DNA of 64,000 bases from Chitinophaga pinensis (GTDB lineage: Bacteria; Bacteroidota; Bacteroidia; B-17B0; Aurantibacillaceae). The stretch is from NCBI GenBank assembly GCA_945887955.1, contig CAMCZO010000005.1, forward strand, positions 1 to 64,000, written 5' to 3'. The notes beneath the pieces are model-generated. The model did not search any database. It was not told where the DNA came from and was given only the letters and a program-made list of their open reading frames with translations. This document shows, piece by piece, positions 52,480 to 58,179 of this stretch (within the stretch, counting starts at the first letter, position 1; each line of letters opens with the position of its first letter). A program made the translations under genes and the position numbers.

Positions 52480-55176
52480 ATGACAAAAAAAATAAATATT
52501 GGAATTATTTTTGGAGGTCAAAGCAAAGAGCGTGAAATTTCATTTGCTGGCGGAAGAACCGTATATGACAATTTGAATAAATTTTTATTTCATGCGGTTC
52601 CAATTTTTGTAGATAGTTTCGGAAATTTTATTGAACTTAATTGGGAATTTATTTATAAAGGGACTATTCGTGATTTTTATCCACCCGTAGAAGCTTTGCC
52701 AATTAAGAATTCGTTTCAGTTGTACGCCGAAAATTTAGGAGATTTAAACGTTGCTGAGCAGGAGCAGCTTATTTCAAAAATTGGCTATAAACTTAGTATA
52801 ACAGATTTAAAACAAAAAATAGATTTTGCTTTTTTATGTTTACACGGGCCTTATGGCGAAGATGGGCGAATTCAAGGGCTGTTTGAATTTAATCAAATAC
52901 CCTATAGCGGTTCAGGGATTTTAGCATCAGCTATTGGCATTGATAAAGGAATACAAAAAGAAATGATGGTAGGTCGGGGATTTAATAGCCCAAATTATAT
53001 TATTATTAAAAGAAAAGATTGGATTGAAGGAGGAGAAGCAAAGCCTTTCGAATTAGTAAAAGAAAAGATTGGATTTCCTTGCGTAGTAAAGCCAGCCAAT
53101 CAGGGATCAAGCATTGGTGTTAGTATATTAAATACCGAAAATGAATTTGAGTTTATGTCCGCGGTTGAAAAAGCATTATTTACCCGCTGGATAGACGCTT
53201 CACAATGGCAGGGTTTTTCGGACGAAGAAAAAATTAATTATGTTAAGATTCTGGCTGATATTAAAGAGGGAATAGGAATGCCCATAGTGGTTAGCTATCC
53301 TCACGATTTGCAAGCCCCAATTATTAATGACCCAAATGCGTTGTTAGAATTTTTGAATACCAATTTAAAAACAGATGGATTTGTAGTTGAGAGTTTGGAT
53401 GGAGAAAGCACGGTTTTGGTAGAGGGATTTATTGAAGGAAAAGAATTTAGTTGTATTGTATTAGAGGACGAAAAAGGAATAGCCATTGCTTTGCCACCAA
53501 CCGAAATAATAAAAGGAAAAGAATTATTTGATTACCGAAGTAAATATTTGCCAGGACTATCTCGAAAGATTACACCAATTGATTTGCCCGACCTTCAAAT
53601 CGAAGCAATTCGGAAAGAATGTGAAAGATTATTTTATGAATTGCATTTTGATGTGTATGCCCGCATAGATGGTTTTTTAAGTATAGATGGAAAAATATTT
53701 TTAAACGATCCCAATACAACTAGTGGCATGATGCCTTCATCTTTCTTTTTTCATCAAGCCGCCGAAATAGGATTAAGCCCTTCACAATTTCTGACCTTTA
53801 TTATTCGCACCTCACTTTCGAAAAGGCTTGTTCAGTCTAAAGGGAATTCAAAATATAAAGCATTGTTGCATCAATTAGACGAACAAATTATTAAAGACAA
53901 GAAAGCAAGTGGCACAAAAAAAAGAGTAGCGGTTATTTTAGGTGGTTACTCTTCTGAAAGACATATTTCTGTTGAAAGCGGAAGAAATGTGTATGAAAAA
54001 TTAGCTTCGTCAGAAAAATATAAGCCATTTCCTGTTTTTTTAACCGGAAATAAAGATGAGCATCAACTATATCAAGTGCCAATTAATTTATTATTAAAAG
54101 ATAACGCAGATGATATAAAAGAAAAGTTAGAAAATTTTAAAATTCATGAGGTAATTAAAAACATTATGAGACAATGTTCGGCCATTACTTCTAAATATGC
54201 GTCTAACGAACATTCCGAAACACCCGAAATTTTATCATACGATCTTCTTAAACAAAAATCCGATTTGGTTTTTATTGCTTTACACGGAAGGCCGGGAGAA
54301 GACGGGGCTATTCAGCAAAAGTTAGAAGAGATTGGTTTACCATATAATGGATCTAATAAAGAAAGTTCATCTATTACTATAGATAAATATCGCACCAACG
54401 AAATATTAAAATCAAATGGTTTTTTAATTGCAGATCATCTTTTAATTTCAAAGCAAGATTGGTTAACAGATAAACAAAGATTTTTACCTCTATTACAAAA
54501 TCAAATTAAGTATCCTTTTATTGCTAAGCCTGTTGATGATGGATGTAGTAGTGCAGTTAAGAAAATAAATAATATTGAAGAGTTTGAAGCATTTTGTATA
54601 TTGTTATTTAGAGAGGTTGAAGAATTAGATTTAGCAGCGGCGAATATTTTACATATAAAATTAAAAGAAGAGTTTCCTCAAAAGCAAGTTGTTTTAGTAG
54701 AAGAATTAATTAGCAAAAAAGATGCAATTCATTTTATAGAAATTACAGGCGGGATGATTACTTCCTTTAATCTAGAAGCAGAAATTGTTTATGAAGTTTT
54801 CGAGGCATCTGAAGCTTTGGCTGACGGAGAAATTTTAACATTAGAAGAAAAATTTTTAGCAGGGCAAGGACAAAATATTACGCCAGCTCGATACGCAAAA
54901 GGACTTGATGATCGTCAAAAAATAAGCGAACAAGTAAAACAAACATTAGGAGCTGCTGCAAAAGTTTTGGGCATAAATGGATATTGCAGAATAGATGCTT
55001 TTGTGAGAGTGTATGCCGATTGCCGTGTTGAAATTATTTTTATTGAATTAAATTCTTTACCAGGAATGACACCAGCTACTTGTATTTTTCATCAAGCGGC
55101 AATTAATAATTACAAGCCCTATGAGTTTATTGACAAAATCTTAGATTTTGGAGAGAGGCGAATGGGTTTAAAATAA
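52480..55176 (+). CDS. Tandem D-alanine-D-alanine ligase-like ATP-grasp fusion protein
   Basis: Two modules: NIGIIFGGQSKEREISFAGGRTVYDNL...HGPYGEDGRIQG...KPANQGSSIGVS; then RVAVILGGYSSERHISVESGRNVYEKL...HGRPGEDGAIQQ...ELNSLPGMTPATCIFHQAA. Confidence 0.88.
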   Translation: MTKKINIGIIFGGQSKEREISFAGGRTVYDNLNKFLFHAVPIFVDSFGNFIELNWEFIYKGTIRDFYPPVEALPIKNSFQLYAENLGDLNVAEQEQLISKIGYKLSITDLKQKIDFAFLCLHGPYGEDGRIQGLFEFNQIPYSGSGILASAIGIDKGIQKEMMVGRGFNSPNYIIIKRKDWIEGGEAKPFELVKEKIGFPCVVKPANQGSSIGVSILNTENEFEFMSAVEKALFTRWIDASQWQGFSDEEKINYVKILADIKEGIGMPIVVSYPHDLQAPIINDPNALLEFLNTNLKTDGFVVESLDGESTVLVEGFIEGKEFSCIVLEDEKGIAIALPPTEIIKGKELFDYRSKYLPGLSRKITPIDLPDLQIEAIRKECERLFYELHFDVYARIDGFLSIDGKIFLNDPNTTSGMMPSSFFFHQAAEIGLSPSQFLTFIIRTSLSKRLVQSKGNSKYKALLHQLDEQIIKDKKASGTKKRVAVILGGYSSERHISVESGRNVYEKLASSEKYKPFPVFLTGNKDEHQLYQVPINLLLKDNADDIKEKLENFKIHEVIKNIMRQCSAITSKYASNEHSETPEILSYDLLKQKSDLVFIALHGRPGEDGAIQQKLEEIGLPYNGSNKESSSITIDKYRTNEILKSNGFLIADHLLISKQDWLTDKQRFLPLLQNQIKYPFIAKPVDDGCSSAVKKINNIEEFEAFCILLFREVEELDLAAANILHIKLKEEFPQKQVVLVEELISKKDAIHFIEITGGMITSFNLEAEIVYEVFEASEALADGEILTLEEKFLAGQGQNITPARYAKGLDDRQKISEQVKQTLGAAAKVLGINGYCRIDAFVRVYADCRVEIIFIELNSLPGMTPATCIFHQAAINNYKPYEFIDKILDFGERRMGLK

Positions 55177-55482: not shown

Positions 55483-58179
55483 ATGGTATTTAGTTTATTC
55501 ATTATTCCTTTAACACCTAATGTAATTAATTTAATAGTTATATTATCTGTCTTGTTTTTTTGTGGAAAATTATATTCCGCAATAAATAATCAGAAGCCGT
55601 CTCAATTACTAGACCTTGCTGATATAAATGACACTATTCGTAAATTAAGTGGCGTTTGGCTTTTTTTAATTCCAATAGTTTCTTTGATGTCAGTATTTTA
55701 TAATATTGGAGTAACGGTTGTTTGGTTTTCTTTGAATATAATAAATTGGGTTGTTAAAGGCCTAAAATGGATTTGGAACGAAGTAATAATAGCAGGCGGA
55801 TTTTTATTACTTAAAGTGCTCTATCATTATCTTTTAATTTGGCCTTGGAATATTTTTAAATTAGCTTTTGAATCTATAAGGCCTGCAGCTAATCTTGCAA
55901 ATTATAAAGTTGCGGTTTATGCCTTGTTTTTATCTTTTTTTATCTCATTTTTTGGGAAATTCTTAGTTAACAATTTTCATTTATCAAATTATTATGAGAC
56001 TATTTTTACTCTATTATCTATCTTACCTATAGGTATTGCCATTTCTTCTATTATTAATTCTTTAAATGGTAATTCAGAAAAAAAAGTTGAGCATAGAAAT
56101 AAATATATTAAACACGCATCAATATTAATTATTTTATTTTGCGCACTATATTTAGTTGAAGGAATAATTATAAATATAGGATCTTTTAATTTTATTTTTT
56201 CAACAATAATGGTAGGCGGAAATTTATTTGCGTCTGCATTTATTATTTTAAATGCAGCCTTATTAATTTTTATTCTTAGCGCATTGCCTTCATTTTCTAT
56301 TAATTATGATGGAGATAATAAAGGACTTATTAAAGCATTTGGTTCATACTTGTTACATAAATGGCCGCAATATTTATTAGCATTACCAGCTATCATTATT
56401 CCTGCAATTTTAGTGAGTATTCTGCCTTATTTTTTAACAAAAGGCCTGTCGGTTGTTTCTCAATCATTTTCAAATTCTAACTATGAAAAGAAAATTAATG
56501 ATTTGCAAGCAGTAGTTGATTCTTCTAAAACGGCAAAATATGAATCTTGGTCAAAAGTAGATTCATTATCCAAGCTTACAATATCAGACGACTCATTATC
56601 TAAACTCATTACTATTGATAATTCGTCTTTAGATAATATTACTCAATTAACCGAATTAAGAATTAATCAACAATATTTACAAGAGTATTATTCTAAATTT
56701 TCAGATTCTATTGGTGCAACCCCATTTCTTTTATTAAATAAAGGATATAGTAAGTTTAAAAAGTTTAATAACCAATGGATTAATTCTATTGCTCTTGATT
56801 CAACAAAATATAAGTCTAAAGATACAACTTCAATAGTTGATTCTAGAAAAAAAAGCGCCGAAGATACAACAGCATTCATTAATGAAATGCTTATACTTAA
56901 TGCTAATATAGCTAATGTAGACTCGGTTTTTATTTCTCTTAAAGAACAATTGAATGCAGTCTGCCTCGACCCATCATTATCAGTTAAGGGCTCGCCATTA
57001 GAAGAAATCAAAAAGGAAACTAATGAGCCGGAGTTGAAAAAAGAGGAAGTGGATAAATGTTTAAGGGAGAGAAATGCAATTAACGCCAGAATAGACGATA
57101 ATAGAGCAAATAAATCACAACTATTAAATAAATTAGCACTTACTAAACTCCAAATAGAACGATCAAAAAAAATAGTTAATCATTTAAATTCTAAAATTAA
57201 ATGTATTAATGATACTTTTTTATCCCAAAAAGCAAATATCAAATGGATGTATTTATTTGTAAGTATTTGGCTTTGTCTTTTATTAGCATTAGCATTTGGC
57301 CTTGCTTTATCATTGTTTGCACATTTAAATCATGCAATTTATAATATATCAAGTCCTGATAATAAGTGGATGGTTTTATCAGAAATAGAGAATGCAAAAA
57401 GCATAAACCCAAATCAACCTTTATTAGGATTAACTTTGTTAACTATTTTTATTTTATTTTATAAACCAATAATGAATGTTTTCCCAACAAATTATAAAAC
57501 AATAATAGATATTGTTTCATTAAAGAGTGGGCCTAAAAATATTTTAGATAAAAGTTATAATAAAATAGATACAGCCCGAAGTAATTTATTTATGGATAGT
57601 AAAAAACAATGGAATAAAATAGATTCTATAATTCAAAATAAAAATACATATTCTCTAAAAAATATAACTTTTCTTAATTATTTATTAGGAGAAGATAAAA
57701 TACAAGATCAAAACACAGACCAAGATAAAGACGGTATTTTAGATAAAGAAGATGAATGTCCTACAGAATATGGTATTCAAGAATTAAACGGTTGCCCAGA
57801 GGTAGCTTTAAAAGAAGAAGAGCAAAAAATAATTGATTTTGCTATTAGTAGTTTAGAATTTGCTACAGCAGATTCTACTTTGATGCAAAATTCTACAACT
57901 GGCTTAGATGATTTAGCTGACTTAATGATTAAACACTCGGATTGGACACTAAAAATGGATGGACATACCGATAATGACGGTAAAGCAGCAGATAATTTAA
58001 AACTATCTAAAGGTCGTGTGTTAGCAGTCAAAAGATATTTGACAGATAAAGGCGTGCCTGAAAACCAGATAATTACCCAATATTTTGGGCAAACAAAACC
58101 AATAGAATCTAATAAAACAGCAGAAGGACGCAAAAAAAATCGTCGTGTAGAAATGAACGTGAAAATAAATAAAAAATAA
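55483..58179 (+). CDS. Polytopic membrane protein with coiled-coil-like region, TSP3-like repeat and C-terminal OmpA domain
   Basis: Multiple N-terminal hydrophobic segments; DQNTDQDKDGILDKEDECPTEYGIQELNGCPEV; OmpA signature LKMDGHTDNDGKAADNLKLSKGRVLAVKRYLTDKGVPENQIITQYFGQTKPIESNKTAEGRKKNRRVEM. Confidence 0.85.
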   Translation: MVFSLFIIPLTPNVINLIVILSVLFFCGKLYSAINNQKPSQLLDLADINDTIRKLSGVWLFLIPIVSLMSVFYNIGVTVVWFSLNIINWVVKGLKWIWNEVIIAGGFLLLKVLYHYLLIWPWNIFKLAFESIRPAANLANYKVAVYALFLSFFISFFGKFLVNNFHLSNYYETIFTLLSILPIGIAISSIINSLNGNSEKKVEHRNKYIKHASILIILFCALYLVEGIIINIGSFNFIFSTIMVGGNLFASAFIILNAALLIFILSALPSFSINYDGDNKGLIKAFGSYLLHKWPQYLLALPAIIIPAILVSILPYFLTKGLSVVSQSFSNSNYEKKINDLQAVVDSSKTAKYESWSKVDSLSKLTISDDSLSKLITIDNSSLDNITQLTELRINQQYLQEYYSKFSDSIGATPFLLLNKGYSKFKKFNNQWINSIALDSTKYKSKDTTSIVDSRKKSAEDTTAFINEMLILNANIANVDSVFISLKEQLNAVCLDPSLSVKGSPLEEIKKETNEPELKKEEVDKCLRERNAINARIDDNRANKSQLLNKLALTKLQIERSKKIVNHLNSKIKCINDTFLSQKANIKWMYLFVSIWLCLLLALAFGLALSLFAHLNHAIYNISSPDNKWMVLSEIENAKSINPNQPLLGLTLLTIFILFYKPIMNVFPTNYKTIIDIVSLKSGPKNILDKSYNKIDTARSNLFMDSKKQWNKIDSIIQNKNTYSLKNITFLNYLLGEDKIQDQNTDQDKDGILDKEDECPTEYGIQELNGCPEVALKEEEQKIIDFAISSLEFATADSTLMQNSTTGLDDLADLMIKHSDWTLKMDGHTDNDGKAADNLKLSKGRVLAVKRYLTDKGVPENQIITQYFGQTKPIESNKTAEGRKKNRRVEMNVKINKK

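Follow-up and report, generated by a model that had tools for sequence, protein, structure and literature searches.

The DNA analysed here (the window, 64,000 nucleotides in length) carries a gene for an 898-residue protein composed of two D-alanine–D-alanine ligase (Ddl, EC 6.3.2.4) modules in tandem, designated M1 and M2, the features of which are collected in Table 1. Its neighbours at this locus code for a metallophosphoesterase and an OmpA-family protein. The OmpA-family reading frame that follows (positions 55483-58179) is by chance also exactly 898 residues long; according to Pfam, the two proteins have no domain in common.

Table 1. Features of the two-module Ddl gene. Positions are those of the window; residues in parentheses are the E. 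coli DdlB equivalents.
Feature	Position	Strand	Basis or remark
Two-module Ddl gene, 898 aa	52480..55176	+	ORF; two PF01820 and two PF07478 domains; AlphaFold
M1, residues 1-478, predicted catalytic D-Ala-D-Ala ligase module	52480..53913	+	Complete DdlB catalytic set, with Asp at E270
M1 ATP-grasp loop KPANQGSSIGVSI: K204 (=K144), S210 (=S150), S211 (=S151)	53089..53127	+	Homologue alignment
M1 insertion, ~75 aa, central domain to VLVEG strand	53179..53400	+	phmmer gap and model helices
M1 omega loop FDYRSKYLPGLSR: K355 (=K215), Y356 (=Y216)	53527..53565	+	K and Y invariant
M1 metal/oxyanion motif LNDPNTTSGMMPSS: D410 (=E270, changed), N412, G416, S421	53701..53742	+	Homologue alignment
M2, residues 479-898, second ATP-grasp ligase module, altered acceptor pocket	53914..55173	+	Profiles and alignment
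M2 N-domain, first half, ~residues 480-575; only part of M2 retained in family f63	53917..54204	+	HMM and f63 model
M2 loop KPVDDGCSSAVKK: K683 (=K144), C689 (=S150, changed), S690 (=S151)	54526..54564	+	Invariant 140/140
M2 omega loop LEEKFLAGQGQN: K791 (=K215), F792 (=Y216, changed)	54841..54876	+	Invariant 140/140
M2 metal/oxyanion motif ELNSLPGMTPAT: E856 (=E270), N858, G862, T867 (=S281, changed)	55045..55080	+	Invariant 140/140

Both modules pass the Pfam cut-offs for the Ddl N-domain (PF01820, matched twice, E 1.5e-49) and C-domain (PF07478, E 3e-53), values that lie far past chance. An earlier note on this DNA, made from the sequence alone, had described one reading frame with two full-length Ddl-like modules, and the two pairs of Pfam domains bear this description out. 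The motifs it quoted are all present in the protein, as are the insertions it reported in both modules: about 75 residues after the ATP loop of M1, and extra residues in both N-domains. When M1 is aligned with S. aureus Ddl by phmmer, its insertion shows up as a gap (residues 230-307); in the AlphaFold model this insertion contains helices at residues 240-259 and 285-295. The structure prediction that the note had suggested was computed for the whole protein with 79 homologues as input and is confident (pLDDT 88.7, pTM 0.88); the Foldseek matches listed all belong to the Ddl and Van-type ligases, 7u9k and 1iow (TMt 0.90 for each) among them.

The sequence identity between M1 and M2 is 26%. With two modules the protein exceeds the size of a single-module Ddl (approximately 300-380 residues), and its score with the Ddl model TIGR01205 (371.8 bits; cut-off 245.65) is reached only by summing the two modules, each of which lies under the curated cut-off (230.4 bits for M1 and 147.6 bits for M2). 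In the NCBIfam profile comparison, none of the equivalog cut-offs was reached. As two sub-threshold modules must be added together before the Ddl model is passed, automatic annotation hides the tandem form.

The catalytic residues were assessed by mapping the E. coli DdlB numbering, its sequence verified against the PDB, onto both halves of the protein and its homologues (128 two-module proteins, later enlarged to 140 to include the most divergent families). In M1 the entire DdlB set is present (E15, H63, K97, K144, S150, E180, E187, K215, Y216, R255, D257, E270, N272, G276 and S281, in 128-140 homologues), with a conservative E270D change throughout and, in one homologue, an Arg at K144. The Asp occupies position 270 in M1 of 140/140 two-module proteins and of the 3/3 proteins of the truncated family f63 described below; it is an unusual change for a metal ligand. 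The equivalents of E15, H63, K97, K144, S151, E180, K215, R255, D257, E270, N272 and G276 are also retained in M2 (140 homologues), and the residues predicted to serve the metal (D839, E856 and N858) and the oxyanion (R837 and G862), together with K683 and K791, are invariant in all 140. M2 nevertheless falls short of the full DdlB set: the substitutions S150C, Y216F and S281T, all situated around the D-Ala pocket, are fixed in each of the 140 proteins, and E187, which contacts the ATP ribose, is displaced. Its position falls inside an insertion in most M2 modules and is retained, as GPEW, in some divergent members only. A Glu slightly past this position (E754) is invariant instead. With E187 displaced, it is in some doubt whether M2 binds ATP.

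The earlier note had interpreted the two halves as degenerate in complementary places. The alignments contradict this view: the M1 motif NDPNTTSGMMPSS contains the equivalents of N272, G276 and S281, and the M2 loop contains those of K144 and S151, both motifs being fixed in the family. Two of the M2 changes, Y216F and S281T, had not been remarked upon. Since the signatures are fixed in 128/128 and subsequently 140/140 homologues, they represent conserved alternatives rather than decay. In comparison with relatives, dN/dS is 0.07-0.08 for M1 and 0.10-0.16 for M2 (where computable), and purifying selection acts on both halves. Decay or a pseudogene is thus ruled out by the 140/140 conservation and the low dN/dS. 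In the stand-alone Ddl proteins of Bacteroidia, S150, Y216, S281 and E270 are present in 51/51.

The phylogeny of the halves, also proposed in the note, shows M1 and M2 grouping together, apart from the stand-alone Ddl proteins (support 96/92), with strong support for M1 plus f63 (100/99) and for M2 (100/100). This grouping indicates one ancient internal duplication, although the stem of M2 is long and some long-branch effect is possible. The large subunit of carbamoyl-phosphate synthetase is an internally duplicated ATP-grasp protein whose halves have different jobs. The two-module Ddl resembles it in its internal duplication and differs in its ATP-grasp family, the match to CPSase_L_D2 (14.9 bits) being under the cut-off of 19.8.

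In the source genome (93% complete), the only PF01820 matches are the two inside this gene; a separate Ddl, for which the note had proposed a search, was thus not found. All 24 of the other genus members searched contain the two-module gene or pieces of it, as do seven of 16 other families, the remainder having one stand-alone Ddl each. Among 296 Bacteroidia genomes, 129 contain the two-module family (126 of the two-module type and three truncated), 166 a stand-alone Ddl, and one (G308) no match, and in none of the 129 carriers does the family co-occur with a stand-alone Ddl. A hidden second Ddl was thus found neither in the source genome nor in any carrier of this class sample: the apparent doubles (G042, G080, G222 and G239) are split matches of one gene, and the second match in G211 spans just 23 positions where a contig ends, and probably reflects contamination or a damaged copy. 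A phylum-wide draw contained 8 carriers in 393 genomes, and those listed included no further representative of the genus or the family to which the window belongs; because the class and phylum draws cover different groups, neither fraction is an estimate for the population. In a species-level collection, related stretches numbered at least 573, with Pontibacter and Rhodocytophaga among their sources. A viral origin was considered, and no relative was found in the viral contigs searched. The plasmid matches to M2 were ordinary or Van-type ligases throughout, none of which reached 60% identity (24-26% among the matches listed). In one genome (G012; L037 and L115) the two-module gene is split into frames of 200 and 732 residues, probably through a frameshift introduced in sequencing or because the gene broke recently.

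MurF is present in 8/8 genomes checked, including the source genome and f63. The source genome also contains a second, MurF-like frame of 815 residues (G000:C10:27924-29168; 819-917 residues in other genomes), which is the length expected of the fusion of MurF with alanine racemase that Bacteroidota are known to have.

Pontibacter, Rhodocytophaga and many uncultured genomes carry a gene for a PASTA-domain protein directly after the two-module gene. By a motif test this neighbour occurs at 20 of 53 loci (three confirmed by Pfam), with two more assigned by position, and a pseudouridine synthase lies downstream at one two-module locus. Several of the stand-alone Ddl genes of the class, judged by eye, also adjoin PASTA-like or pseudouridine-synthase-like genes. 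In a single genome (G309, L231:2790-6341) one reading frame of ~1184 residues encodes the whole two-module Ddl, a hydrophobic, probably transmembrane, segment and the PASTA protein, the sole such triple fusion found. The PASTA neighbourhood has been lost in the window's genus.

Family f63 (three genera; L228, L229 and L230) represents a natural deletion experiment for the role of M2. Its proteins (557-590 residues) consist of a complete M1 and the first half of the M2 N-domain, and no other Ddl N-domain was found in the f63 genomes, such that the truncated protein is their sole Ddl. The C-terminal tail reaches 28.8 bits at most with the HMM of the M2 N-domain and ~0 with that of M1, which identifies it as a leftover of M2 and rules out f63 as an ancestral intermediate. 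The half-domain is predicted to be folded (pLDDT 87.7, pTM 0.87) and probably has a structural role. Since M1 and this half-domain form the only Ddl in genomes that have kept MurF, M1 with its Asp270 very likely suffices for the essential function, and very likely supplies D-Ala-D-Ala in the two-module proteins; M2 activity is dispensable in f63, where most of M2 is lost. The earlier note had taken a sole Ddl with one fully active module as speaking against its own interpretation; the former is what we find, and the latter holds in part, in that f63 apparently manages with M1 plus a half-domain. At one f63 locus (L228), the gene immediately upstream of the truncated Ddl belongs to the beta-lactamase family (PF13354).

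Like the stand-alone Ddl proteins (E. coli DdlA and DdlB, S. aureus Ddl), the two-module protein exhibits the PF01820-PF07478 order, the fold, the catalytic residues and the PASTA neighbourhood; it differs in its two modules per chain, the Asp at E270 of M1, the Cys, Phe and Thr at positions 150, 216 and 281 of M2, and the extra insertions. In lacking Tyr216 and Ser150, positions linked to a change of acceptor (PMC7691350), M2 resembles VanA, VanC, VanG and LmDdl2, which produce D-Ala–D-Lac or D-Ala–D-Ser, and the Van-type hallmark of a residue other than Tyr at 216 is found in M2 as Phe in 140/140. Unlike the Van ligases, however, M2 has its own Cys/Phe/Thr set, is always fused to M1, and scores far under every curated Van cut-off (the best, VanG, being 104 of 495 bits). 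The chlamydial-type MurC-Ddl fusion (PRK14573) also places a Ddl within a larger cell-wall fusion protein, but there the partner is MurC and here a second Ddl, and the modules score 105 and 72 of 1015 bits with its model. A search of the open-licence literature for tandem Ddl, Pontibacter Ddl and PASTA with Ddl in Bacteroidetes returned no description of the tandem architecture.

Taken together, we favour, with a probability of about 0.57, a two-headed Ddl in which M1 serves the cell wall, while M2 would be a further ligase site that has been kept with its acceptor specificity altered. An ancient internal duplication would have generated an enzyme with two heads that serves as the organism's only D-alanine–D-alanine ligase. 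M1 would bind ATP, two Mg2+ and two D-Ala to form D-Ala-D-Ala for the cell wall. M2, which keeps the residues for the ATP phosphates, Mg2+ and the oxyanion hole as well as E15, the residue that holds the first D-Ala, would most likely still use D-Ala but ligate it to something other than a second D-Ala, or be looser in its choice of acceptor. In Ddls that make only D-Ala-D-Ala both S150 and Y216 are reported to be conserved, and DdlB with both replaced shows weak D-Ala-D-Lac activity (PMC7691350); in combination with the M2 changes around the substrate pocket, these data suggest that M2 catalyses a ligation of its own, with a different acceptor or a broader range of them. M2 would thus most likely be a second ligase site and not a remnant. 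The note had also suggested a different activity, and this part survives for M2, which appears changed in substrate specificity; its further suggestion that the protein is not an ordinary cell-wall Ddl is unlikely to hold, the gene being the sole Ddl and MurF being present. More tentatively, the universal, essential Ddl may have been replaced in many Bacteroidia by a bifunctional ligase, the second D-alanyl product of which (a dipeptide or depsipeptide) would be new for these bacteria, with its formation physically coupled to D-Ala-D-Ala synthesis and linked to a cell-wall protein with PASTA domains.

M2 might instead be a non-catalytic domain that regulates M1 and has ATP, D-Ala or the dipeptide as its ligand. 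The displaced E187, the changes at S150, Y216 and S281, and the loss in f63 of most of M2 but not of the structural half-domain are all consistent with such a role, which we consider unlikely as the strict invariance of the metal, oxyanion and lysine positions goes beyond the needs of mere binding. That both modules make D-Ala-D-Ala, the M2 substitutions being neutral and the fusion boosting output or stability, would agree with the retained E493, H602 and R837 of M2, the hydroxyl still offered at 281 by Thr, and the location of the fused gene in a ddl-PASTA neighbourhood. The contrast between Cys/Phe/Thr in every M2 and Ser/Tyr/Ser in every stand-alone Ddl, at positions of which 150 and 216 are tied to D-Ala-D-Ala restriction (PMC7691350), renders this distinctly improbable.

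A decayed intramolecular pseudo-dimer with complementary half-sites, one of the two interpretations in the earlier note, would be in line with the shared dimer arrangement common in Ddl (PMC6899670) and with the fixed arrangement of modules suggested by the pTM of 0.88. Yet neither half shows decay, and M1 survives in f63 without most of M2. Moreover, the conserved dimer-face residues of Ddl (G77, G81, V95, A99 and D103 in BpDdl; PMC6899670) are retained in M1 alone, where the G81 equivalent is Gly in 124/128; in M2 at least 125 of the 128 have no Gly at this position, and the next two positions are variable, often polar or charged. This pattern suggests that the faces of M1 may pair between chains with M2 outside, and leaves such a pseudo-dimer very improbable. 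Scarcely credible, finally, is an amino-acid ligase of another kind with no cell-wall function: the failure to reach any equivalog NCBIfam cut-off would fit it, but the gene is the sole Ddl in every sampled carrier genome, and both MurF in the genomes checked and the ddl-PASTA neighbourhood argue against it.

The enzyme Ddl is essential, and antibiotic action is directed at it (D-cycloserine). Many Bacteroidia (129 of the 296 sampled genomes) use a double-length form of it with a second, strictly conserved and altered active site. Activity of M2 would mean that a second D-alanyl product, which seemingly nobody has sought, is made in these bacteria. The most divergent two-module proteins are those of family f39 (L246, L248-L251 and L257), in which the M1 loop reads KHPxQGST and some M2 modules exhibit a GPEW-like E187; by their sequences, the f39 M2 modules are perhaps nearer to the ancestral M2.
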